Part shown: positions 23,245 through 48,002 of the stretch, piece after piece
Position numbering within the stretch: position 1 is the stretch's first letter
How the letters are laid out: each line of letters opens with the position of its first letter
Assembly: GCA_032821775.1 (NCBI GenBank)
Contig: JAVLRN010000002.1
Span: forward strand, 1,240,001 to 1,304,000
Source of the DNA: Sanguinoderma infundibulare
Lineage: Eukaryota; Basidiomycota; Agaricomycetes; Polyporales; Polyporaceae
Length of the DNA stretch: 64,000 bases
Direction: 5' to 3'
Translations under genes and position numbers: made by a program
The notes under the pieces: model-generated
Databases searched by the model: none
Told to the model about the DNA's origin: nothing
What the model saw: the letters and a program-made list of their open reading frames with translations, nothing else

Positions 23245-23582
23245 GGTCGTCGTTGTGTCGTGAAGGAGTGGCAGGAGGATGGAGTCGGTCGCTCGACTGG
23301 GGAATGGACCTGATAACGGACTGCGCGGCCTGTTTGTCCCTGTGTACAAAGTGGCTGGCCCCACCCTCGGTCCAAGTGCTGTCATACTCGGACGAGCCTC
23401 CACAGAGCCAGACACCCAATAGAAGGGCATTACCTATGGAACATACTTTGATGACCAGCACTTTCATCAGTATACTTGTGCATCCACCTAGGCATCCCTA
23501 AGGTGGGCCAGCGTAGATTCGACTGCATCACGTGCGCATTATGTTAAAGCGCCTAACGACATTGGCGGGTAGCTAAAAAGAT
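23245..23582. other. Short intergenic region upstream of the protease
   Basis: Promoter space of the protease gene and 3' flank of the tRNA. No clear TATA box or gene is seen. Confidence 0.35.
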
Positions 23583-23686
23583 GATGAGAGTGGGATTCGA
23601 ACCCACGCCCTTTCGGACCAGATTTCGAAGGGGGTTCAGATCCCACCTCCTTAGTCTGGCGCCTTAGACCGCTCGGCCATCTCACC
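23583..23686 (-). tRNA. tRNA-Leu (anticodon AAG) with intron
   Basis: Acceptor arms GGTGAGA and TCTCATC pair with one G-U. The D arm is ATGGCCGAGCGGTC, the anticodon stem CCAGA/TCTGG frames a loop C-T-A-A-G-G, and an intron of about 25 nt follows position 37. A long variable region typical of class II tRNA-Leu precedes the T arm GTGGG-TTCGAAC-CCCAC. The internal A and B boxes are intact. CCA is not encoded, as expected for eukaryotes. Confidence 0.93.
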
Positions 23687-23913
23687 ATGTAAATGAAGAG
23701 GAGAGCCAACATTCTCAGCAGCAGAGGAGGATGCGGTACGAAGTGCATGATAAGTACCAAGGCTGGTTATTTATGTAACTTCGTGCCAATTGGTTACCAA
23801 TGACGTCAGCCTGATAAGTCGATGAAGCTTATCGAGAATGCTATCCCAAACCTTCAGCTGCACGAGTTAGCAGTTTTCACCATTCTATCGACTGCATGCG
23901 TCTACCCAAAGTC

Positions 23914-35759: not shown

Positions 35760-37600
35760 TCACGCTGTCAACTCCACCGCCCCGTTCTCCGTCTCCAAGC
35801 TCACCCACGCATGAAAGTCACGCTCGAGGTCGTTCGGGCGCCGCCCCGCCAGACCTTCATGGTCCGCTCGATCAGAAACCACAATCGGCTCCGTCCTTTG
35901 TGCGCCGGATCGCTCGCGTGCATCTCGAGGTCGAACCCGACCGGGCCATCGTACCCGACCGGGCCGTCGTCGTCCCGATCTCGAACTGACCCTCGAACGC
36001 GGGGTGGAAGTGGACCGTCGCAGGCGAGTTGGTCGTGCGCGCGGAGAGCGTGAGGGTGCTGTCGACGGGCTGCTCAGGGAAGGAGAGGTCGAGCGTATCG
36101 TTCTCGGTGTGCGCGGAGATGGAGAAGGGGCTACCGGAGCGAGGGTGAGAAGTCGAGCGGAGGGAGATCGTGGAGTGGAGGAGGCTGCAGGGTTGTGAGA
36201 ATTACTTCCTGGCAGGGGTGATTTAGGGAGCCGTCTACACAGGCTTTTGCAAGTGCGCGGTTTATTATACCGGCCGCACTTGCAAGTGCGCGGGGAGATC
36301 CGGAAAGGGCTGGGCGGTGATGGCGGGCGGGGTAGACAGGGGCAACCGTCGCGCGATTGTCGGAGGCGTGCGATTGTCGGGCCGCGAAAGAAAAGACAAT
36401 GGCAAAACGGGGGCTCGAACCCCGAGCAATACAAGCCCTCTACACAGTTTAAACAATACTCCAATCCACTAGTCTACATACTCTTTGGGAGTAATGGTAT
36501 CATTTGCGCTATGTAGTGTGATGACTCAGCATGAACCTGCGCCTGATCCCCAGATGGAGGCGCCCTCATGCGATTGCACACTCTGGAAAGTGTTCAATGA
36601 GTTCTTGGTGCATATGCTCTCTATCAGATACCTTCCAGGGCTGAGCACTGCCGTGGACTTGTAAATATTGGGGCCAACTGCAAGTACTACCCCACTGGGA
36701 CTTCATGCGCTTATGGGCCACTCCCGGAGGACGCTTGCATCAGGGGTGAGACACTTGGCATCAGGGCGAGGCACTTCCATCAGATCGGCAGTCACTTGAA
36801 TCAGGCGGCGCAGTCACTTGCATCAGCGCGGACACGAGCATCGGGGCTATAAGTATGTGTTATATGTGTTCTCCCCACAACAGGTACAAAGAAGTAGTGG
36901 CGTAGTGGTAAAATATGTTGTTAGTGAGGTGTTCGGCGGTCCTTGGTTCAAGTCCGGATGGTGGTAAATTTTTGAAAATTAATCAATTACGATTGTATAC
37001 GAAAAGATGTACAAGATGCGCTTATAGCAGGGCCATAAATACAAACCAGAGGCCGGAGAAGAGGGGACAGGAGAAGGGAGGGGACGGGGACATGCAGGCC
37101 GCGCACTTGCAAGTGCGGTCGGTATAATAAACCGCGCACTTGCAAAGGCGTGTGTAGACTCTACATTTAGGAACATGGGACGTACGCGTTCGTGGTGTGC
37201 ATGATGAGGTTGGTGGACGCGTCGCCTTGGCTCACAGCTTTGTGGTCGAGGATGACTTCCGCGTGGATGGGCTTGTTAGACGTGCAGAGGTCGAGCGAGC
37301 GCGAGACGTGGAATTGGCCGTCTTTCCAGGCATTGGACGTGACGATCGTCGCGTTCTCAGCCTCAATGTACTGCATACACATGTGAGATCAGGTCAAGCA
37401 TACAAAGTAAAATAATAATAAACGTACGCCCCCGTGGATTAGCTTGTTCGCCGAGGACACTTTGAGCAAGCCGAACGAGACCTTGCTTTCGAGATCTGAG
37501 AAGGGGTCGAAGCCAGGAAACGCCTGTTCCCGAAAAGGGAAGTTCGAAGTTCCTTTGCGACGTGTTTTGGACCAAACACGCTCCTCACGCCGCTCTCAGA
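35760..37600 (-). CDS. Gene of unknown function with a transposon in its intron
   Basis: Exons run from about 37600 to 37428 (FPGFDPFSDLESKVSFGLLK), 37186-37370 (YIEA ... SLDLCTSNKPIHAEVILDH) and 36183 downward (FSISAHTENDTLDLSF, LTLSARTTNSPATVHFHPAF). The repeated motif of alternating strands with TTNA/TTNS suggests a beta-helix-like surface protein, but I cannot name the family. Intron 36184-37185 holds a 938-bp element; without it and one target copy the intron would be 57 bp. Downstream of 36000 the frame is broken around an 18-bp tandem duplication (35932-35949 and 35950-35967). The 5' end is not found and may lie beyond the Copia element at 37713. Probably no longer functional. Confidence 0.45.
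36227..36295 (+). repeat. Left terminal inverted repeat of element A
   Basis: Begins GAGCCGTCTACACAGGC and includes the internal palindrome GCACTTGCAAGTGC. It is complementary to 37096-37164 with few mismatches. Confidence 0.75.
36391..36485 (-). promoter_or_regulatory. tRNA-like Pol III module, left side of element A
   Basis: On the minus strand: A-box-like TAGACTAGTGG (36466-36476), a perfect B box GGTTCGAGCCC (36411-36421) and a T-run (36391-36394). Transcription would run toward the left end of the element. The fold is not a clean tRNA cloverleaf. Confidence 0.6.
36735..36830 (+). repeat. Spaced direct repeats inside element A
   Basis: Five copies of a unit close to CACTTGCATCAG, about 20 bp apart, each followed by a short G-rich spacer. 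Possible protein-binding array. Confidence 0.5.
36888..36973 (+). promoter_or_regulatory. tRNA-like Pol III module, right side of element A
   Basis: A box TGGCGTAGTGG (36898-36908), B box GGTTCAAGTCC (36945-36955) and a T5 terminator (36969-36973). It points to the right end. The A and B boxes match the tRNA consensus, though the stems pair poorly. Confidence 0.62.
37096..37164 (-). repeat. Right terminal inverted repeat of element A
   Basis: Read inward on the minus strand it starts GTAGAGTCTACACACGCC and then matches the left repeat. Confidence 0.75.
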
Positions 37601-37712
37601 CGACGCTCCCCAGCCATGCTCGGCCTGTCTACCTACCACCCCTACCCGGCTTGTCTTCTACACTCGCTGCAGGCTGACTCTACGCTTCTCGGCGCATATC
37701 CTGGTCAAACCG

Positions 37713-38043
37713 TATAGAAAGGATAACTCAGTACGCGTGTACGCGGGACTATAAATGTATTGTAGTACCTATAGAAAGGATAACTACATGTTTGTTAGTA
37801 TGTGTAGTAATCACTAGTAACCGGAATATATGCTCACCTCAGTACGCGTGTACGCGGGACTGAGGTGAGCTCTACATCATATCGAACTCTAAGTACTCAT
37901 AACAGACAAGAAACCGAGACATAAGGCCAAGACATACAACATCTAAGTGGACAAGACAGAAACCGGCACAATATACCGAAACGAGACAATCCGAGACCCC
38001 TCGGGCGCGCTCTTGCTTGCCCGGGGCACCCAAAATTCCAACA
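37713..38043 (-). repeat. 3' LTR of the Copia element
   Basis: On the minus strand the LTR begins TGTTGGAATTTTGGGTG and ends CCTTTCTATA. It contains the unit TATAGAAAGGATAACT twice and a hairpin with 12-bp arms around CTCACCTCAGT/ACTGAGGTGAG. Confidence 0.95.
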
Positions 38044-38055
38044 CTCCCCCTCAAG
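38044..38055 (-). other. Polypurine tract of the Copia element
   Basis: CTTGAGGGGGAG lies directly upstream of the 3' LTR on the minus strand, the expected primer for plus-strand DNA synthesis. Confidence 0.8.
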
Positions 38056-41000
38056 CGAGAGCAAGGCCGAGGGCGGAGGCGAAGTGCTTGACTTTGGTGG
38101 AGGGGAGCGCCTTCGTGAGGATGTCGGCCGTTTGGTCGTCGGTGGGGCAGTAGATGAGTCGAATCGAGCCGGCCTCGATGGAGTAGCGGATAAAGTGGTA
38201 CCGAATGTCGATGTGCTTCGTCCGAGCGTGGTAGGAGCCGTCCTTAGTGAGCGCGATGGCCGATTGGTTGTCACCGTGGAGAGTAGTCGGTTCGGAGAGT
38301 GGTTGGAAGACCTCGCCTATGAGGCGCCGCAGCCAGATGGCCTCCTTCGCGGCGTGTGTGGCGGCGACGTACTCGGATTCCGCGGTCGACAATGTGATGA
38401 GCTCCTGCTTTTTCGAAGCCCACGAAACCGCGCCACCATCAACGAGAAAAACGTACCCCGTGATGGCTCGCCTGTGCTCCTGCGAGGCCCCATCGGCGTC
38501 CACAAAACCCTCCAACCCCTCCGTCCTTCCACCGTAAACCAGCACCAGGTCTCTCGTCCCAGAGAGGTACCTAAAAACCCTCTTCACCGCCTCCCAATGC
38601 ACCCAGCCGGGGTTCTCCGAGTATTGCGCGAGTGTTGAGACCGTGAACGCGATGTCCGGTCGGGTTCCCATCGCCGCGTACATGAGGGCGCCGATCGCCT
38701 CTCTGTAGGGGACGCGCTTCATGCGGGCGACGTCGGTTGCACTCTCGGGGCACTGGGCCTTCGAAAGCTGCGCGTGGGGGTCCATGGGTGTCGAGATCGG
38801 CTTGAGGTCGTCGAAATTGAAGCGGGTGATGATGGCGTTGATATACGAGTGCTGAGAGAGCGAGAGCGTGTGTGCTTCAAAATCACGGGAGACCTTGATG
38901 CCGAGAATCCAGCTGATGGGTCCGAGGTCGGTGAGCTTGAACTTGCGCTCGATGCGCCGCTTGTAAGCGTTGTTGAGGGGGCCGGAGTCACCGGTGATGA
39001 GGCAATCGTCAACATGGACGGCCAGGATCACCAGGTGGTTGTCCTCGGATTTGAAGAAGACACCATAGTCGGCCTCGGCGCGTTTGAAGCCTAGGTCAGC
39101 AAGCGTGGAGCAGAGGGTCTCGTACCATTTGCGCCCGCCCTGCTTTAACCCGTAGAGTGCCTTGTTCAGCTTCAAAACGAACTTGCGGCGGTCGGCAAAC
39201 TCGTGGTCCGGCGGTTGCTCCAGGTAAACCTCCTCGTCCAGTGTTGAGTTGAGGTAAGCGCTAGTGAAATCGAACGCGTCGGCGGGCCAGCCGTTTCGAG
39301 CAGCGATAGCGAGAATGAGGCGGAAAGAGGAGAGCTTGGCGACAGGGGCAAAAGTTTCATAATAGTCGACGCCGTGGATCTGAGTAAAGCCGCGGGCAAC
39401 AAGCCGAGCCTTATACTTCTCGATTTCGCCAGCCGAGTTCTTCTTGATACGAAGGACCCACTTGCTGTCCACGACATTGCCCGAGGTCGGCCGTTCGACG
39501 AGTGTCCAAGTGTTGTTGGTGGTTAGCGAGTCGATTTCGGCTTGAATTGCGTCCTTCCACTTGGGCCAATCCGGGCGCTTCCGAGCTTCGGCGTACGTCG
39601 GCTCGATACACTCGGCGTCTCCCGAGGCAGCCGCCATCGCCAACTCAACCATCTCCCACTCCTCGCGTTCGTCCCCCGACACCACCACAAATCCTTCCTC
39701 GTCCTCAGCTTCCTCCACGGTCATCTTTCTTGCACTCTCGGACCCCTCTGGCATTCCTTTTGGCAGCAACTGGCTGCTCCTTCGTCCACCAACACTCCCC
39801 TCGCCGCTCCTCAACCTCCGCACATACTCGGACTCCTTCCGGATACGCTTCGGCCGGTCAACTGCAGCCTCAACAGGCTCGATGGCGGGTGGTGAGAGGT
39901 GTGGGGCCGAGGACTGAGGCACTGATGCCTCGGTCGGGGGGTCTTCGGGTGCAGTGGTGGGTGCAGTGGTGGTTAGGTCAGTGGCGGGTACGTTGGCGGG
40001 TGCAGTTTCCGGCAGCGCAGGTGCACACTCGCCCTGGTGAGTCTCGGCTTTGTTTCCGTCTCCCGCCCCGATACCATCCTGCTCCCCCTCGAGCGGCACC
40101 TCGACGTCGGCATCTGCCACGTTGAAGCGCACGCTGCGCTCGACCGTCACAGACCGGCGGTCGGGCCAGTAGATGCGGTGTGCGTCCGAGGGCTCGTCCC
40201 AGCCCACCCAGTGCCCCACTCGAGCCCGGTCGGCGAGCTTCGAGCCGCCGGGACTGTGTACCCGGACCTCGCACCCCCACGGATGCAGGTGGGACACATC
40301 GGGCTTCGTCCCCCAAAACACCTCGTGCGGCGTTGAGCCGGCGAGGGCGCGCGTTGGCGTGCGGTTCTTCGTGTAGACCGCGTAGTTGAGAGCTTCGCCC
40401 CACAGCGCTTTTGGCAGGCCGCTGTCGTGCAGCATGGCACGCACCTTCTCGAAGTGTGTGCGGTTTGCTCGCTCGCTCACGCCGTTGTACTCTGGCGTGT
40501 CGTGCGCCGTGAGTTTCCTCGTCGTCCCTTGGGTGTCGAGGTACTCGGAAAACGCTTGTGAGAGGTACTCGCCGCCGCGGTCCGTATGGAGGCATTTGAC
40601 TTGTGCGCCTTTCTGGGTACGATAGAAAGCTTCGAGCTTCTTGTACGAGTCGAATGTTTCCATTTTGGACCGCTGGACGTAGACAATGGTGAAGCGGCTG
40701 TGATCGTCGATGAACAGTGAGGTGTAGAGGCGATGACCGAGAGTCTCAGTGCGCGCGGGTCCCCAAACGTCAGAGTGGACCTCGTCGCCTATGGCAGCGG
40801 CGCGGGGCCGCACGCGCTCCTTTGCGATAGCCTTTCGTGTCATCTTCCCGGCCTCGCATGCGTCGCAGACTGTCGGTTGGCTTCCAGGGATCAGGCTGAC
40901 CCCCTTTACCAGGCCTCTCGAAATCGCGTCACGCGCCGCAGCGTAGGAGATATGTCCAAGCATACGGTGTGCCTCGTCCAGCGTGATCTCACGCGTTTCC

Positions 41001-41653
41001 ATCACCCTATCCTCCTCACGCTCCCCCCCAACCATAGCGGCCTCGCTCCGGTGCATTGTTGTCCTGTACAGGCCCCGTACAAGCGGTATACGAGCAACAA
41101 CGTCGCCCATATCGTTCGAGATCCGGCAGCCTTTGGCCCGAAACTCAACCGTGGACCCCGACCGCACAATGCGCCCAATGGACACAAGTGTGACGTCCAT
41201 CGTAGGTGCGTGAAGAACGTTTCGGAGGAGTACGCGGGTGGTCTCAGTGCCATCCACGTTGGTCGGGACAGTAATCCACATGTCGCCGCGGCCAACACCT
41301 CGAAAAGTATGGCTGTCGGCGGCGTGAATGGATTTAGGAGTTATCGGGCGGTAGCTGATGAAGTGGTGGAGGTGTGGGGACATGTGGCTGGTCGCGCCGG
41401 AGTCGAAGATAACCTCTTCGTCCTCGGTGGAAGGGTCGCCCGCGAGCATTGCGCCCGGGTGACTGGTAAAGTCTTCACCCTCGACGTCGTTGTCGGGGTC
41501 ATCACCGCCCTCGGACGTTGAGTCGGAGGTGGTCTGGAGGTCGGGCATGGAGTCGGCGTCGGAATCTTCTGCAATGCGCATGAACCACGCCTCGTCCCTC
41601 TCCTTCTCGGCGTAGGTATTCAGTAGTAGGGATGCATCCCTAGTGGTACTCAT
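38051..41653 (-). CDS. Copia Pol: protease, integrase, reverse transcriptase, RNase H
   Basis: 1,200 codons without a stop. In order: acidic linker, aspartic protease motif IFDSGATSHM (about residue 82-91), GAG-pre-integrase with HISYAAARDAI and the CDACEAGK zinc region, and the integrase core with DVWGP, LHTDRGGEY and the ANRTHFEKVRAMLHD helix. Then come the reverse transcriptase (KARLVARGFTQ, VHVDD) and RNase H (LSTAESEYVA, TADILTKALP). All key residues I can check are present. The first ten codons up to ASLLL derive from the nested element; the real Pol begins at 41625, where the sequence was once continuous with Gag. Confidence 0.95.
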   Translation of the reverse strand: MSTTRDASLLLNTYAEKERDEAWFMRIAEDSDADSMPDLQTTSDSTSEGGDDPDNDVEGEDFTSHPGAMLAGDPSTEDEEVIFDSGATSHMSPHLHHFISYRPITPKSIHAADSHTFRGVGRGDMWITVPTNVDGTETTRVLLRNVLHAPTMDVTLVSIGRIVRSGSTVEFRAKGCRISNDMGDVVARIPLVRGLYRTTMHRSEAAMVGGEREEDRVMETREITLDEAHRMLGHISYAAARDAISRGLVKGVSLIPGSQPTVCDACEAGKMTRKAIAKERVRPRAAAIGDEVHSDVWGPARTETLGHRLYTSLFIDDHSRFTIVYVQRSKMETFDSYKKLEAFYRTQKGAQVKCLHTDRGGEYLSQAFSEYLDTQGTTRKLTAHDTPEYNGVSERANRTHFEKVRAMLHDSGLPKALWGEALNYAVYTKNRTPTRALAGSTPHEVFWGTKPDVSHLHPWGCEVRVHSPGGSKLADRARVGHWVGWDEPSDAHRIYWPDRRSVTVERSVRFNVADADVEVPLEGEQDGIGAGDGNKAETHQGECAPALPETAPANVPATDLTTTAPTTAPEDPPTEASVPQSSAPHLSPPAIEPVEAAVDRPKRIRKESEYVRRLRSGEGSVGGRRSSQLLPKGMPEGSESARKMTVEEAEDEEGFVVVSGDEREEWEMVELAMAAASGDAECIEPTYAEARKRPDWPKWKDAIQAEIDSLTTNNTWTLVERPTSGNVVDSKWVLRIKKNSAGEIEKYKARLVARGFTQIHGVDYYETFAPVAKLSSFRLILAIAARNGWPADAFDFTSAYLNSTLDEEVYLEQPPDHEFADRRKFVLKLNKALYGLKQGGRKWYETLCSTLADLGFKRAEADYGVFFKSEDNHLVILAVHVDDCLITGDSGPLNNAYKRRIERKFKLTDLGPISWILGIKVSRDFEAHTLSLSQHSYINAIITRFNFDDLKPISTPMDPHAQLSKAQCPESATDVARMKRVPYREAIGALMYAAMGTRPDIAFTVSTLAQYSENPGWVHWEAVKRVFRYLSGTRDLVLVYGGRTEGLEGFVDADGASQEHRRAITGYVFLVDGGAVSWASKKQELITLSTAESEYVAATHAAKEAIWLRRLIGEVFQPLSEPTTLHGDNQSAIALTKDGSYHARTKHIDIRYHFIRYSIEAGSIRLIYCPTDDQTADILTKALPSTKVKHFASALGLALA

Positions 41654-41695
41654 CCACTCTAGGGATGCATCCGAACACGGATGATGGATGCATCC
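41626..41695 (+). repeat. Left TIR of element B
   Basis: Begins GTAGGGATGCATCCCTAG and aligns base for base, with few mismatches, to the complement of 43052-43121. Confidence 0.8.
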
Positions 41696-41850
41696 CTCCT
41701 ACACGACTTACTGTGCATAATGGATGCATCCAATGATACACGGTAAGTCGAGTAGAACAGATGCATCCAGACACAGCGCCAATCTGTATGCTTGCTCGCA
41801 TCACCACTGTTCGCCCGAGCGTGCAATTGCCCAATCAATTAATGGCTTTT

Positions 41851-41928
41851 AAAAAAGCAAACACAGGATTCAAACCCCTGCAGTCACACCAAACAGTCAC
41901 CACAAGTAACCACTGCGCCAACAAGACT
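41851..41928 (-). promoter_or_regulatory. tRNA-like Pol III module, left side of element B
   Basis: Minus strand: A box TGGCGCAGTGG (41910-41920), B box GGTTTGAATCC (41866-41876) and a T6 terminator (41851-41856). Points toward the left end. The A-box context GGCGCAGTGGTTA is very tRNA-like. Confidence 0.65.
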
Positions 41929-42498
41929 TTACATTGCTTGCGTTGGCTTACTCTATGTCATGAAATGCTGAGGGAAACATACGTTTTTAGAGCCCGGATG
42001 GCTGTATAGTGTCCAGGTAGCATTGCATTGGGTTGTGGCTGCCTAAAGCTAGCTCCTGCGCTCTGAAATCCATATCTTGGCAAGTTCCTGGTCGATCTTG
42101 GTCAATTTTGGCCTGTTTGAAAGCAGTATATTGCCTGCTTCTAATGGGGTATAGTACATGATGATTGGTAACCATTTGGGAGAGCTGTATGCGAAATATT
42201 AGGCACACAGGGGGGAGGAGAAAGGTACTGGAATACTGGCTGTTCTATCAATTTGACACAGGCGTTATGGGGCTCATTGGAAAGCCCTGAATCATGGCTT
42301 TCAGATGAGGTATAGAAATCCGAGGGGACGCAATGTGGGACAGAGATATCTTGGTGAGAATGAGATAAGCGCCGGAATACAGGACTCACCTTCCTGGAAT
42401 CCATACAGGTGACACAGCGACCGCAAATGGAGGTTCCCATGCTCTGAAGACATGTATATATTGGTAGCAACAAAAACGATGCAAATAGGAGGTCTCAA

Positions 42499-42622
42499 TC
42501 CCGAGATATGCCCACCTGTCCTCCTGGTAGGAGGAGAGGGTCAGCATATCTCGGGAACGGATGGACAGATTCCTACGGTCAAGGCCTCGTTGGAACCGCA
42601 TTACGAATGCGGTTCCAACGAG
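42499..42622. repeat. Nested hairpins in the middle of element B
   Basis: 13-bp arms (42499-42511 and 42544-42556) around CCCGAGATATGC enclose a smaller CTCCT/AGGAG stem. Next to it, a 17-bp perfect hairpin with a 3-nt loop lies at 42586-42622 (CTCGTTGGAACCGCATT and its complement). Confidence 0.75.
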
Positions 42623-42930
42623 CCCTTTCGCGAACAGATACGTGCAGAATTGATCGTGATACATACCATTCTTTACCTACTTGAGGCGATCATTGTATCC
42701 CTGATAACCCAGTCAATAGCTCACTTGATAATACGCTGTTGGACGCATTGGAAACACCTTAAAACCACGAACGAAAAAAGCCTAAAACAAATGAAATCAG
42801 ATTAGTATTGACCTCAGAACAATCCCAAGAACCTCTGCTACATAGTGACCTTGCCTATAGGGAAGAAACATGGTCGAAGTGTTGGTTGGCTGACTTACAG
42901 TCTATAGATTGATTGCTTACAATTGTGTAA

Positions 42931-43015
42931 AGGCATGTTAGTTCAACAGTTAGATGGGCTGATGCACTTGATGGATTGGTCGAGGTCGGTGGTTCAAACC
43001 CCGGCTAGTGCTTTT
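42931..43015 (+). promoter_or_regulatory. tRNA-like Pol III module, right side of element B
   Basis: A-box-like TAGTTCAACAG (42939-42949), B box GGTTCAAACCC (42991-43001) and a T4 run (43012-43015). Points toward the right end. Confidence 0.58.
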
Positions 43016-43051
43016 GGTCGAAATATTGGCTGTTTGATGGGCGCTTGCCAC

Positions 43052-43121
43052 AGATGCATCCGTCATCCGCATTCGGATGCATCCCTAGAGTGGATGAGCA
43101 CCGCTAGAGATGCATCCGCCC
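43052..43121 (-). repeat. Right TIR of element B
   Basis: Read inward it starts GGGCGGATGCATCTCTAG and then matches the left repeat. Confidence 0.8.
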
Positions 43122-44171
43122 TACTGAAGCTGCTCTCTCGGCTGCCTTTGAAGCCTTGTCCTTGGGCTTTGGGCCTTGGCCCTCCTTCCCGCCGCCGGGC
43201 GCCCAGCATTCAGACTTGTAGTGGCCGCGCCTCTTGCAGTTGAAGCATTCCACGTTCCGCTTGTTTCCGCCCTTCTTCCCCTTGTCATTTGCTGACAATG
43301 CGACGTCATTAGGGTCTCCGCCTCGACCAGGCTTGCTCCTCAAAGCGCGCCGGTCGTACTCGTCCGTGAGAGCGGCCATCAGCTGCTCCGGAGTCAAGAT
43401 GGTTCCGGTGATGGTCGACGTGGCGGTTAGGGAGGAAATGTAAGTTTCGAAAGTGGTTGGCATGGAACCGAGGATGATGGCATAGAAGTCGTCGTCCTCA
43501 GGGGTGTGGCCCATAGCGGCAAGGTCTTCGTACATCGTCCGTATCTTCGCAAAGTGGTCTCTGACGTTCGCTTTCTCCCCACAGCGCTGCTCCTGGAGCC
43601 TTCGACGCAGGTCAAGCGAAACCATGCGCGAACGGCGTTCGAATTCCGCCGCAAGTGCCAACCAGATCTCGCGCGCAGTGCCTTTGGCGCGGATCTTCAT
43701 AAACAGTGAGTCCGGGATCGTGCTCGCGATCAGTTGCTTAACGACCGCTTCGCCCTTCCTCCAGGTGGTCAATTCGGCCTGGTAGGCCGCCCGTGCGGGG
43801 TCCGGCGCCACGCCAGGACCCAGGTTACCGTCAGCGGGGGCAGCAGCCTCTGTCCCGCCACCACCGGCTTCTCCGGCAGCGGCAGCGTCTGCTCCCCCTC
43901 CAGCACCAGCGGTGGCTCCAGCTACACCTGCAACCGGGCCTCCCCCCTGGGCTGTGATGTTTCCCCCCGCCATAAGTGGCGGCACAACAGGCTGGGTGGA
44001 CGTACCGTCGAGATGCCCAGCGAGACCCTTTGCGTCCGCCGCCCAGAGGATGCGCTCCTTATAGAGCACCCAGTTCGTGCCGCCAGCTTCGAGCTTCGGC
44101 ACACGGACGTGATCTTCGCTGAGTTTGACGGAGGACATGTTGTACGTATGCTCGGTAAGCGCAGGGCTCAT
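43104..44171 (-). CDS. Copia Gag, truncated into the nested element
   Basis: 355 codons starting MSPALTEHTYNMSSVKL; the start codon lies inside the primer-binding site. A gag N-terminal region (GTNWVLYKERILWAADAKG) precedes a Gly/Ala-rich insert and the UBN2-type Gag core (LFMKIRAKGTAREIWLALAA, LRRRLQEQRCG). A zinc knuckle CFNCKRRGHYKSEC (C-x2-C-x4-H-x4-C) lies near residue 310. The last residues after KAAERAAS come from the TIR of element B and end in a stop. Before that insertion Gag and Pol formed one frame, as in Ty1-like single-frame Copia elements. Confidence 0.92.
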   Translation of the reverse strand: MSPALTEHTYNMSSVKLSEDHVRVPKLEAGGTNWVLYKERILWAADAKGLAGHLDGTSTQPVVPPLMAGGNITAQGGGPVAGVAGATAGAGGGADAAAAGEAGGGGTEAAAPADGNLGPGVAPDPARAAYQAELTTWRKGEAVVKQLIASTIPDSLFMKIRAKGTAREIWLALAAEFERRSRMVSLDLRRRLQEQRCGEKANVRDHFAKIRTMYEDLAAMGHTPEDDDFYAIILGSMPTTFETYISSLTATSTITGTILTPEQLMAALTDEYDRRALRSKPGRGGDPNDVALSANDKGKKGGNKRNVECFNCKRRGHYKSECWAPGGGKEGQGPKPKDKASKAAERAASVGRMHL

Positions 44172-44175
44172 AACC
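44164..44175 (-). other. Primer-binding site (half-tRNA-iMet type)
   Basis: GGTTATGAGCCC abuts the 5' LTR. It is the complement of GGGCTCATAACC, the anticodon-arm sequence of initiator tRNA-Met, rather than of a tRNA 3' end (which would start TGG). Drosophila copia uses a cleaved initiator tRNA in this manner. Confidence 0.75.
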
Positions 44176-44506
44176 TATAGAAAGGATAACTCAGTACGCG
44201 TGTACGCGGGACTATAAATGTATTGTAGTACCTATAGAAAGGATAACTACATGTTTGTTAGTATGTGTAGTAATCACTAGTAACCGGAATATATGCTCAC
44301 CTCAGTACGCGTGTACGCGGGACTGAGGTGAGCTCTACATCATATCGAACTCTAAGTACTCATAACAGACAAGAAACCGAGACATAAGGCCAAGACATAC
44401 AACATCTAAGTGGACAAGACAGAAACCGGCACAATATACCGAAACGAGACAATCCGAGACCCCTCGGGCGCGCTCTTGCTTGCCCGGGGCACCCAAAATT
44501 CCAACA
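44176..44506 (-). repeat. 5' LTR of the Copia element
   Basis: 331 bp, read as identical to the 3' LTR. Confidence 0.95.
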
Positions 44507-44775: not shown

Positions 44776-45010
44776 AATATCAGGTGAACGCCGGTGGTGG
44801 AGATGATCTCGCTGATCTCGCCGACCTCGAGGGCCTACGTCGCTTCCTCGAAGTAGTGTTTGCTGCGCGACGTCGAGAGACGGACTTCTCAGTTGGACTG
44901 CAGCACGAGATCTGTGAGGCGCAGGAGACGGCGTGCAAGGTGTAGCTCCATACCATCCTGAACGAGTGGCCGGCGTGGGGGGTATATGACGATGGAGTTG
45001 GGGAGGAGGA
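44776..45010 (-). pseudogene. Internally deleted ESS1/PIN1 pseudogene
   Basis: The minus strand repeats the beginning of the ESS1 gene at 46.8 kb: leader, ATG at 44954-44956 directly followed by a GT intron, then [19 protein letters not shown]. The WW-domain Trp codon is TGA here. After KHYF it jumps to the last coding block (EEAT*ALEVGEISDIIST.. GVHLIF), so the middle of the PPIase domain is missing. The intron is retained, so it is a DNA-level copy and not a processed retrocopy. It lies between the Copia element and PUP2. Frames on either side (44512-44775, 45011-45251) have no recognisable function. Confidence 0.75.
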
Positions 45011-45251
45011 AGCCGGTGGTGGTCGATTGTAAATCAGGGTCGAGAACGGATAACTCATCTTAATAAACGCCGCCGCCTCGTCGACCTCGCGTTTTGCGAA
45101 GGACGTCGTCAACGAGTTCACCAACGCATGCAACTTCACAGGGTCTTTTGGGACGCCTCGAGAGAAGCAGGGACAGAGGATGTTTAAGCGTGCAACGAGA
45201 GAATTGCGTATTGGTACAGGTATGACAGCAAGAGTTTCCAAGTCCGGGTTT

Positions 45252-46314
45252 CTACATAACGTCAATGATCTCTTTTAGCCTTACTTCGTCCAGAATCTCA
45301 AAGCCGCTCGTTGGCGTAACCTGCGTGTGCGTGCTAGCGTGAGTGGGAGGCTCTAGGAGAGGGAATGCAGACGGCGCACCTGCGCGAGTTGCACGTTGTG
45401 GTGATCGAGCTTCTCCTCCATGACCTGCTTCAACACTCGCAGGACGAGTATCTGAGCTTCCTGCAACGTCATTTGCTGCGTGTTTCCAATGAGGATATGG
45501 GATGTACACAATGCGTGGAACAGGCAGACGTACCTTGTGCCATTTATCTTGCAGTTCACTCTGCGCCGCCTCCGAGCCGGAGCCGATCGCCTTGGCATCA
45601 TACCGGACAAATGTACCAGAGGGATCGGTGTGGAATCTTTGCGCAGAGGTTCGTCATGGAAGACGCGCAGGAAGGTGCGGGACGGAGCACTCACAATTGT
45701 GGCCCGAGCTCGTCGATCCCCGCAATCAAGAGCGCAACCCCGAACGGCCGACTCATCATCGCGTCCTCGTCGTGCACGCTCTCGCCAAACCGCAAGGCGA
45801 GGTCGCATACTGCCTGAGTGACGCTCTCGACCTTGATGTGCTCGTCGTAGGTGAATGCGTGGTTCTGAGCGGTGACTCGGGCGTGGTCGATCATGGTACG
45901 GGCGTCGGCGGTGAGGCCGGACATGGCGCAGCCGAGGTGACGGTCGATCTCCATGATCTTCTCGATGGAGGAGGACTCGAGGAGGGGGGACTGGACGCGC
46001 TTCTCGACGCCGAGGACGACTCCTGCGGGTGTGCGGACGCCGACGGTCGTGGAGCCGAGCTGAGCGAGCGCATAAGACATTGCAACAACAGTTTCCAGAG
46101 GATGCATACCTTGATAGCCTCAATTGCATACTCGACTGTAAGAATAGAGTGAGTGCTAAAGACAACCAGAGCGGATGGAAAGTACGTACCTTGGAAGAGA
46201 CGACCTTCCGGTGAAAAGGTGTTCACACCGCGATCTGATTTCGCATACGATGAGTACGAAGAAGTGACGTCAATCAAAGTACGGCATACCGTATTCTGAG
46301 CGGGTCAGGAACAT
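45252..46314 (-). CDS. PUP2: 20S proteasome subunit alpha-5
   Basis: A non-catalytic subunit of the outer alpha ring of the 20S core particle. The start at 46314 reads MFLTRSEY, then after an intron [24 protein letters not shown] and [60 protein letters not shown]. Later exons encode [30 protein letters not shown] and [18 protein letters not shown], and the end is [15 protein letters not shown]. About seven exons, all with GT...AG introns of 45-65 bp. The alpha-type N-terminal signature [12 protein letters not shown] is created across the first splice. Sequence conservation is very high, so the identification is secure. Confidence 0.96.
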
Positions 46315-46824
46315 GATTGGTGTGTAGAGAGAGGGCGGGGAAGAGGAGGAAGGATGAGAGGCTTGCGTTGAGCTTGCGTACCAGGTCGCGGACTGCCTTT
46401 GACGCTGAATGCGCGTACGCGTCCAGCGCGTGACACATTTGTGACTAAATCTCTGTCACGTTTGCTGCGAGCGCAACCTGCGGTTCCAAGTCCACCGTTG
46501 GATTTGCCGGGCTCGGAGTATAGACAGCGTCGGGAATTGGGATGGCAAGAATATGTGTGCGTACCTAGTCGTTGCCTCTGGATATGTTATCTACTACTTA
46601 CTGAACGATATCATGTCATATAAATCGTAACAAAATGGTTATGTACCACTTTAAGTACTTATCAGCAACGAACACTACGTCACCATTGGCGCTTGTTTGA
46701 GATGGGTCTGATACTATGTGCGCCTATCTAGATAACTCGACCATGCTTGCCGCAATCAGCCAGACCTCCTCCTCTTCGACCCCATCATCGTATACCCTCC
46801 CTCCACCCCGGCGACTCGTTCAGA
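46315..46824. other. Divergent promoter between PUP2 and ESS1
   Basis: No gene. The last 100 bp before the ESS1 ATG are duplicated beside the pseudogene at 44.95 kb. Confidence 0.45.
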
Positions 46825-47505
46825 ATGGTATAGGAATACACCTTTCACATCGTCTCATACATCTTACAGATCTTCTGTTGCAGTCCAACTGGGAAGTTCG
46901 TCTGTCGACCTCGCGGAACAAACACTACTTCTACAACACGGACACGAAGGAGTCTTCCTGGGAGGACCCTCCGGGGCTCACCGAAGACGAGATCAAAGCT
47001 CTTCCGGGTGCGAAGGAGTTCTTGAAGCGTCAGGTCCGCGCCAGCCATCTTCTTGTCAAGCACAAAGATAGCAGGCGGCCGAGCAGCTGGAAGGAGGTAC
47101 GCCCTTGCATCCTCGTCTTTCATACCCTTCCTTCTTCAACGTACACGGGGTGTGTGACACTGCAGCCGATCATCACGCGCACGAAGGAGGAGGCCATTGA
47201 GATCTTGAAGGGCTACGGCAGCGAGATCAACGGCTCGGCGGAGAAGTTCGCCGAGCTCGCGACCGCCCACAGCGACTGCAGCTCGCACTCGCACGGCGGC
47301 GACCTTGGTTCCTTCGGTCCGGTACGTCTACTCTTGCATCGTTGGAGTGGCTGGCTGGCTTTTCTGACACGCAACTCGACTATCCGGCCCGCAGGGCCAG
47401 ATGCAGAAGCCGTTCGAAGACGCGACATATGCCCTCGAGGTCGGCCAGATCAGCGACGTCATCTCTACCGACAGCGGCGTTCATCTCATCCTGCGCACGG
47501 CATGA
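46825..47505 (+). CDS. ESS1: Peptidyl-prolyl cis-trans isomerase, PIN1/ESS1 type
   Basis: Isomerises phospho-Ser/Thr-Pro bonds, notably in the RNA polymerase II tail. Coding exons are 46825-46827 (the ATG alone), 46884-47096, 47166-47321 and 47395-47505, giving 160 residues, close to human PIN1 (163). The WW domain runs from [17 protein letters not shown] to SSWEDPPGL. The parvulin domain begins [18 protein letters not shown] and contains the active-site Cys in [17 protein letters not shown]; it ends GVHLILRTA. The ATG-only exon is supported by the first intron's GT...TGCAG ends, by the lack of another start in phase, and by the same arrangement in the duplicated pseudogene. Confidence 0.93.
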
Positions 47506-48002
47506 TGCACGAGATGCGGGAAGAGTAAGCGAAGAAGTCTGTTGTGTATCTGTTGTAACATTTCCAGGGCACTGTTGTACAATGTGATCCTTAAGTGGAC
47601 GTCCCAGGAGGTTGGCGATTGGAAGTCTAGAAGATGGAATGGTGATCCAAAACACGACGAATGGTCGCTCGTGCTCGTCCTCTTGCGCTTGTTTTCCATC
47701 CTTGTTCTTACCCCACTGCTACCAGACCATGGTCCGATCGAGTGAACTTTTACATGTTCCCCGACGTTCTCACGGATACCACTCCAAGGGCTATCTATGC
47801 CGATATTCTCTACGGCAGTTGAGGCGCAGCACTAGATGCCGCCCTCACCGCTCCGAGGGAGACTACGTGGGGTCGCCGGGCACGAGTTCCGTCTTCGCTA
47901 CCCAGTCGCGACCCTCCGTGACGACATGGTGAGCCGCTCCATCCGTCAGTCTTGCTGTGATTATGGCTCGACTCATGCCCAATCTATGACCGCGTCAAGA
48001 AG
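47506..48002. other. Intergenic, possible gene debris
   Basis: 3' region of ESS1. A stretch around 47758-47830 (MFPDVLTDTTPRAIYADILY) looks coding but is soon interrupted by a stop; family not recognised. Confidence 0.3.

Follow-up and report, generated by a model that had tools for sequence, protein, structure and literature searches.

Outward-facing candidate RNA polymerase III promoters near the ends of two probable KDZ-type elements in Sanguinoderma infundibulare

In a 64,000-nucleotide stretch of the Sanguinoderma infundibulare genome (contig JAVLRN010000002.1; hereafter the window, whose own numbering is used throughout), two short multicopy elements with terminal inverted repeats (TIRs), A and B, carry near each end a tRNA-like module made up of an A box, a B box and a T-run, and all four modules point outward. 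An earlier sequence-only reading had described the two elements together with their four B boxes, A-box-like sequences, T-runs and common polarity, all of which are present in the sequence, and had regarded the elements as unrelated. That observation stands in its core and its interpretation is corrected here: A and B are very probably non-autonomous members of one superfamily of transposons, KDZ (Kyakuja-Dileera-Zisupton), and the corrected picture, of KDZ-type transposons with apparently selected RNA polymerase III (Pol III) promoters near their ends, is the more coherent one. The parts of the two elements are as follows, TSD standing for target-site duplication and the modules being those located by the module scan.

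36228..37164, + strand: element A, probable non-autonomous KDZ-type element, 937 bp, ends GAGCCGTCTACACAG...TGTGTAGACTCTAC
36221..36227, no strand: left TSD of element A, ATTTAGG
37165..37171, no strand: right TSD of element A, ATTTAGG
36233-36293 / 37099-37159: inverted arms of element A
36404..36476, - strand: left module of A, type M2, outward; A box TAGACTAGTGG 36466-36476, B box GGTTCGAGCCC 36411-36421, TTTT 36404-36407
36898..36973, + strand: right module of A, type M1, outward; A box TGGCGTAGTGG 36898-36908, B box GGTTCAAGTCC 36945-36955, TTTTT 36969-36973
41612..43135, + strand: element B, probable non-autonomous KDZ-type element, 1524 bp, ends GTAGGTATTCAGTA...TACTGAAGCTGCTC
41605..41611, no strand: left TSD of element B, TCTCGGC
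43136..43142, no strand: right TSD of element B, TCTCGGC
41619-41694 / 43053-43128: inverted arms of element B
41630, 41663, 41686, 41722 and 43075: five GGATGCATCC palindromes close to the ends of element B
41851..41920, - strand: left module of B, type M3, outward; A box TGGCGCAGTGG 41910-41920, B box GGTTTGAATCC 41866-41876, T6 41851-41856
42939..43015, + strand: right module of B, type M4, outward; A box TAGTTCAACAG 42939-42949, B box GGTTCAAACCC 42991-43001, TTTT 43012-43015

The modules were sought as an A box (at most one mismatch), a B box (at most one mismatch) and TTTT within 60 bases. At these strict limits the 64 kb gave five matches, namely the four modules of A and B and a tRNA-Leu-like gene at 23593 (- strand) whose recovery serves as a positive control, and dinucleotide shuffles of the window (n = 30) averaged 0.03 matches, with at most 1 in any shuffle. 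The four tRNA-like modules are therefore real at strict limits, and the earlier expectation that chance would rarely give four ordered sets is borne out. The A box of the M4 module in element B was set by alignment with relatives having TAGTTCAGTGG, the scan's own choice being TTGTGTAAAGG, which precedes the B box by 68 bases.

Intact tRNA genes were ruled out as the identity of the modules. The sequence-only reading had suggested running tRNA finders on them, and these gave nothing: ARAGORN reported no tRNA in the window and nine further loci, missing the tRNA-Leu-like gene at 23593 as well, and the Rfam tRNA model had no match at E<=5 within 36000-43400. One module of a third KDZ family, family C, scored 24 bits against this model, below the cut-off of 29, and this score makes a tRNA ancestry of the modules likely. 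The tRNA-Leu-like gene itself lies at about 23,575-23,690 (- strand), appears by eye to bear an intron, and is unreported by ARAGORN as run. MicroRNA-like Rfam matches were likewise set aside, as all fall below their own cut-offs and are probably due to palindromes; the nested hairpins in the central part of B (window 42500-42630), which its relatives have in common, may account for a sub-threshold plant microRNA match in L081.

The boundaries needed correction. For element A the duplication ATTTAGG is confirmed and the start moves from 36227 to 36228, whereas element B, previously placed at 41626-43121 with a TA duplication, really extends 14 bp more at either end and is flanked by TCTCGGC. 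Alignments of the close B copies extend to 41609-41612 and 43135-43137, 14-17 bp beyond the earlier ends, and each of the eight close copies has its own 7-bp TSD outside its ends (TCTCGGC here; TTCGAGA, AAACCAG and others elsewhere). B was thus rejected as a TA-duplicating element, the supposed TA being internal to its inverted ends. As had been claimed, the elements are non-coding: no open reading frame of at least 120 amino acids lies wholly within A or B (ATG, GTG or TTG starts; introns disregarded), so that neither can be taken for an autonomous KDZ element.

The genome (48.9 Mb) was searched for copies, KDZ matches and promoter patterns. When read in one orientation, A and B both start with GTAG, end with GCTC and have 7-bp TSDs, and both have large relatives with similar ends. 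A 21.1-kb element at C6:393228-414326 has A-type ends, the TSD GACCTGC on both sides, KDZ (6.9e-23) and CxC2 (1.9e-22) domains, and one outward M1 module at one end. Two 23.3-kb spans with B-type ends each contain a KDZ match; their ends are 84-96% alike to those of B over 47-67 bases, and the TSD of the one whose ends were read is GCTCTTC. These ends, shared with KDZ-bearing relatives of 21-23 kb, and the 7-bp TSDs are the grounds for filing A and B as non-autonomous KDZ elements, contrary to the view that they are unrelated; from the shared ends we infer that the large relatives may mobilise them. Kyakuja was rejected as a closer assignment, as A and B have GTAG..GCTC termini and inverted arms of 61-76 nt where Kyakuja has CA..TG without TIRs. 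In a protein search a KDZ fragment from this genome gave five matches, the only named one being from Trametes sanguinea (53% identity over 65% of the query). Open frames in the 21.1-kb A relative (L023, L083, L084, L070) further show weak resemblance, under the Pfam cut-offs, to SAC3/GANP and hemerythrin-like domains; these are possibly captured host genes.

Orientation was counted in 65 elements in which both ends were matched with at most 3 mismatches per end, the TSD serving as a tie-break. L040 is counted despite a mis-called second end; excluded were second cuts of counted elements (L030, L046, L055, L059, L060), L066, which is a separate insertion (7-bp TSD TCTACGC) identical in sequence to L065, and cuts lacking one or both ends (L018, L019, L023, L069-L071, L076-L078, L080, L082). 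The two TSD copies match at 7/7 positions in 59 of the 65 elements (one of these, L012, in a C run), at 6/7 in five and at 2/7 in L040. All 116 modules found in these elements point outward and none inward (109 modules under a stricter scan), counts that are non-independent because copies share descent, and the B box lies 100-400 bp from the nearer element end (median 197).

Paired outward modules had been predicted to persist in copies. This holds for all 22 near full-length A copies (L001-L022, 85-100% identity, the window copy included), which at the scan threshold keep M2 and a second outward module, for all eight close B copies (M3 and M4), and for 23 of the 24 more distant B-type elements, the exception being L040 with one module and its mis-called end. 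It does not extend to 13 distant A elements of 760-1279 bp, each of which has a single outward module, M1 in all 13. Within the B lineage the end combinations M3/M4, M4/M4 and M3/M3 all occur and polarity is unchanged: the distant B-type elements include near-palindromes of 2.2-2.5 kb, whose two ends carry mirrored copies of M4, and elements of 1.3-1.5 kb bearing M3 at each end. The near-palindromic 2.4-kb relatives (L042-L058 and L079) consist of two B right halves placed head to head, with about 1.6 kb extra between the arms in L079 and a shorter form in L081.

To what extent the modules share ancestry was addressed through the 3' flanks beyond the T-run. M3 and M4 flanks were matched as well by 0 of 500 shuffles in one comparison and gave p 0.31 in another; M3 and M4 are taken to share their 3' flank, and to share descent within the B lineage. 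Five comparisons of M1 with M3 flanks gave p of about 0.05-0.6, leaving common descent of A's and B's modules unproven, and we infer two to three independent module origins across the A and B lineages.

Three IUPAC degenerate-base patterns matched 64, 41 and 17 times genome-wide, compared with 1, 0 and 0 matches for the reversed patterns. On inspection by eye, the 64 matches divide into 25 within KDZ-type elements (family C, 17; A-type, 4; B-type, 4), 36 that resemble nuclear or organellar tRNA genes and 3 outside both classes. The 41 comprise 18 outward pairs at spacings of 0.9-1.9 kb (36 matches), a distant pair on C4 and three single matches; 16 of the 17 are within B-type elements and one is a tRNA. 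This near-confinement to the elements or to likely tRNA genes means that the modules do not look like free short interspersed elements (SINEs), even though they have A and B boxes, and the earlier suggestion of SINE-derived ends captured by a DNA transposon fares poorly for the same reason, at least as a recent capture. The distant pair (C4:913241 and C4:990208) consists of outward modules 77 kb apart in a 98% inverted repeat of more than 1 kb with a KDZ match between them; a search for a TSD around C4:912965-990537 (L077, L078) found none, and this span may represent a single very large element, or else the two ends may belong to separate copies. Family C comprises six spans of 19.5-21.3 kb with KDZ matches, bounded by tRNA-like modules (L085, L086 and L088 being among their labels).

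C2:295233-314690: family C span
C3:3930072-3950641: family C span
C4:424465-444979: family C span
C4:570276-591578: family C span
C4:3847999-3867648: family C span
C7:898190-918710: family C span

Five unpaired modules also belong to this family, three of them at most 13 kb from a KDZ match. One copy has a pair of modules on its left side and a single one on its right, lying within or next to a long inverted repeat that extends outward past the stretch read.

Conservation within the modules was measured as mean pairwise identity, with Mann-Whitney tests, in 13 M1, 9 M3 and 7 M4 representatives; these were chosen by the box scan, and since no element among the 65 was without a match the resulting exclusion is small, though not zero. 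The obligate letters of the A and B boxes are 0.91, 0.95 and 0.96 identical in M1, M3 and M4, respectively, compared with 0.72, 0.65 and 0.76 for the remainder of the module and 0.72, 0.77 and 0.82 for the degenerate box letters, and the T-run has an identity of 1.0 in all three types. In the B comparison the B box is within the top 69 of 1089 windows ranked by conservation and the A box is average (rank 572). The T-stem, which a tRNA requires, is lost in M4 (two of five pairs in 7/7 sequences) and varies from one to five of five pairs in M1, whose consensus fold has an energy of -3.7 kcal/mol. These data suggest that the boxes evolve as if selected and that the tRNA fold is kept inconsistently, the common denominator of the modules being a putative type-2 Pol III promoter with its terminator. 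The conserved outward start signals further suggest that the elements may use the small-RNA transcription machinery of the cell at their ends.

Among the roles offered by the sequence-only reading, the boundary or insulator idea is the mechanism we prefer. Starting from the observed anatomy, TSDs, KDZ domains, polarity and biased conservation, we give slightly less than an even chance to the reading that occupancy of the outward promoters by transcription factor IIIC (TFIIIC) and Pol III keeps the ends of A and B open or fenced. The KDZ transposase of the 21-23-kb relatives would mobilise A and B, each of which would have, near either end, a compact, outward-pointing Pol III promoter of tRNA origin composed of A box, B box and T-run, and selection would retain the promoter letters and the terminator more than the tRNA fold. 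TFIIIC would bind the boxes, TFIIIB and Pol III would assemble, and Pol III would produce short RNAs terminating at the T-run, ahead of the inverted repeat; the invariant T-run argues for real transcription over bare TFIIIC binding. It is the assembled machinery, and not the RNA, that would count, the occupied site leaving the transposase-binding ends nucleosome-free and shielded from silencing or from read-through out of the flank. Yeast tRNA genes are described as nucleosome-free and as forming silencing barriers that depend on the A and B boxes (PMC7990762). A broader proposition, that ends of the KDZ superfamily have built-in host Pol III machinery working in mobility (through opening, fencing, pairing of ends or fork pausing) and that different KDZ lineages recruited such modules repeatedly, is possible, and we hold it as the more doubtful of the two.

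A number of observations weigh against occupancy of the ends as the explanation. No module is present in the approximately 430 bp read at the second end of the 21.1-kb A relative, nor in the stretches of about 530 and 565 bp read at either end of the 23.3-kb B relative, from which it follows that modules are not universally required in cis. Each of the 13 distant A elements is limited to a single full module: a loose scan found a second in none of them (0/13), the weak matches all lacking a T-run; two of these, in L061 and L062, are outward (2+2 mismatches, 319 bp from the other end) and others are inward. In the six family C spans the bounding modules face inward. Outward pairing is accordingly strongly preferred in the non-autonomous A and B lineages and is no general rule for KDZ elements, as the family C modules and the module-poor large relatives indicate. 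The argument that identical polarity in two lineages betrays selection is weakened in turn: it keeps the boxes that evolve as if selected, and loses the two unrelated lineages, given that M3 and M4 share descent, that 13 distant A elements have a single module and that family C points the other way. The p values for box-letter conservation, 0.008 (M1), 0.0002 (M3) and 0.005 (M4), come from non-independent columns and ignore relatedness. In the A lineage the terminal 300 bp are well conserved as a block, the module included. Finally, some of the folds are better kept than the occupancy reading would have it: the M3 T-stem has four or five of five pairs in 7/9 sequences, the M3 consensus folds at -7.7 kcal/mol with a T-arm and an outer stem, and the M4 consensus forms a stable long hairpin, unlike a tRNA, at -22.0 kcal/mol.

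The conserved terminal block of the A lineage is what would be expected if the modules were hitch-hiking, that is, if a tRNA or SINE fragment had been captured early and kept, its boxes functionless, only because it lies in the few hundred terminal bases bound by the transposase. The bare ends of the 23.3-kb B relative and the likely tRNA ancestry of the modules fit such a history as well. What speaks against it is the focus of conservation, in three module types, on the obligate box letters and the T-run, with the degenerate letters drifting nearly like the rest, and we regard it as unlikely, albeit the most serious of the alternatives.

The folds bear most directly on the idea that the Pol III transcript itself, a small RNA encoded by the element, is the product. 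A complete promoter with an invariant T-run would suit this, as would the T-stem and outer stem that M3 mostly keeps, the M4 hairpin and a long anticodon-like stem noted by eye in the family C modules. No fold is common to the module types, however, their energies and shapes being different, and no Rfam match exceeds its cut-off in the regions searched; an RNA product is rather improbable. We judge improbable, too, that the modules act as polar replication-fork barriers, in which an outward Pol III gene would meet an entering fork head-on and the pause would couple transposition to replication. This reading explains the outward polarity best, with 116 of 116 modules in A- and B-type elements so oriented, and in yeast head-on tRNA transcription is described as pausing replication forks (PMC7990762). 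It is at odds with the inward modules of family C and with the single full module of the 13 distant A elements, and replication-coupled KDZ transposition has no support in this analysis. The idea that degenerate motifs were mistaken for modules is almost certainly wrong. In its favour are the shortness of the boxes, the one mismatch in the window copy's M4 A box and the average of 3.4 matches per shuffled window once 2+2 mismatches are allowed, but neither the strict-limit shuffles nor the reversed genome-wide patterns come near the counts found.

Known systems resemble A and B in part. KDZ transposons are the closest, the large A relative likewise having KDZ and CxC2 domains: Kyakuja of Agaricomycotina makes 7-bp TSDs as A and B do (PMC12730594), and KDZ1-3 of Cryptococcus have inverted repeats (PMC12810828). 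Kyakuja-1/2_LB, in contrast, has CA..TG ends without TIRs (PMC12730594), unlike the GTAG...GCTC ends and inverted repeats of A and B, and Zisupton and a Dileera family are reported to make 8-bp TSDs instead of 7-bp ones. By word count, neither 'tRNA' nor 'polymerase III' occurs in the main texts of PMC12730594, on KDZ and TET/JBP genes, and PMC12810828. Miniature inverted-repeat transposable elements and other non-autonomous TIR elements are likewise short, non-coding and multicopy, with inverted ends and a fixed TSD length; A and B differ by their paired or single Pol III promoter modules, and the matches listed include no such miniature element. More generally, among the literature matches listed for TIR or KDZ elements in connection with TFIIIC, tRNA-like sequence or Pol III promoters, none shows such a layout, which does not establish its absence from print.

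The A box, B box and degenerate tRNA-like body are shared with tRNA-derived SINEs, but here they lie within DNA elements with inverted ends and 7-bp TSDs. A partial precedent for SINE-derived sequence spreading in a DNA transposon is MER6, which has a SINE V-domain; that case is from mammalian genomes, and the opening of its abstract does not mention paired outward Pol III promoters (PMC6887750). Dada transposons have in common with A and B a TSD of 6-7 bp and a link to tRNA genes, but they insert into small-RNA genes and have no TIRs (PMC3706591), whereas in A and B the modules are inside the element. Insertion of A and B at a fixed small-RNA-gene site, as by Dada, is excluded by TSDs that vary between insertions. 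Closest to the function we propose are the yeast TFIIIC and tRNA-gene boundary elements, which are A/B-box units at domain borders (PMC7990762). Those are host loci, whereas the candidate boundary modules described here are parts of transposons. In C. elegans, some repeats bound by TFIIIC reportedly have a possible origin in DNA transposons.

The setting of the window copy of B is given here as context.

37705..44467, - strand: Copia-type element with long terminal repeats (LTRs), host of the B insertion

Its 300-bp LTRs (37705-38004 and 44168-44467) are 99% alike and B is inserted in the gag region. Site-specific insertion, or B as an integral part of the Copia element, was considered and rejected, the roughly 12 flanking bases that looked constant among the close copies being B's own ends; among the B-type loci collected, only the window copy (L031) sits in the Copia element 37705..44467. 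A 64-nt inverted repeat at 44789-47476 has one arm in a WW/PPIase-domain gene (46716-47528); as the arm belongs to this gene, the repeat was dismissed as a further TIR element and is probably part of an inverted gene duplication.

DNA transposons are usually portrayed as a transposase and its inverted repeats, and how short non-autonomous copies remain accessible in silenced fungal chromatin is little discussed. If the reading preferred here is true, selected Pol III promoters at the ends would be a concrete and testable answer, linking transposon ends to the boundaries formed by tRNA genes, and the elements would seed short Pol III/TFIIIC sites at each place where they land, here within a Copia element.

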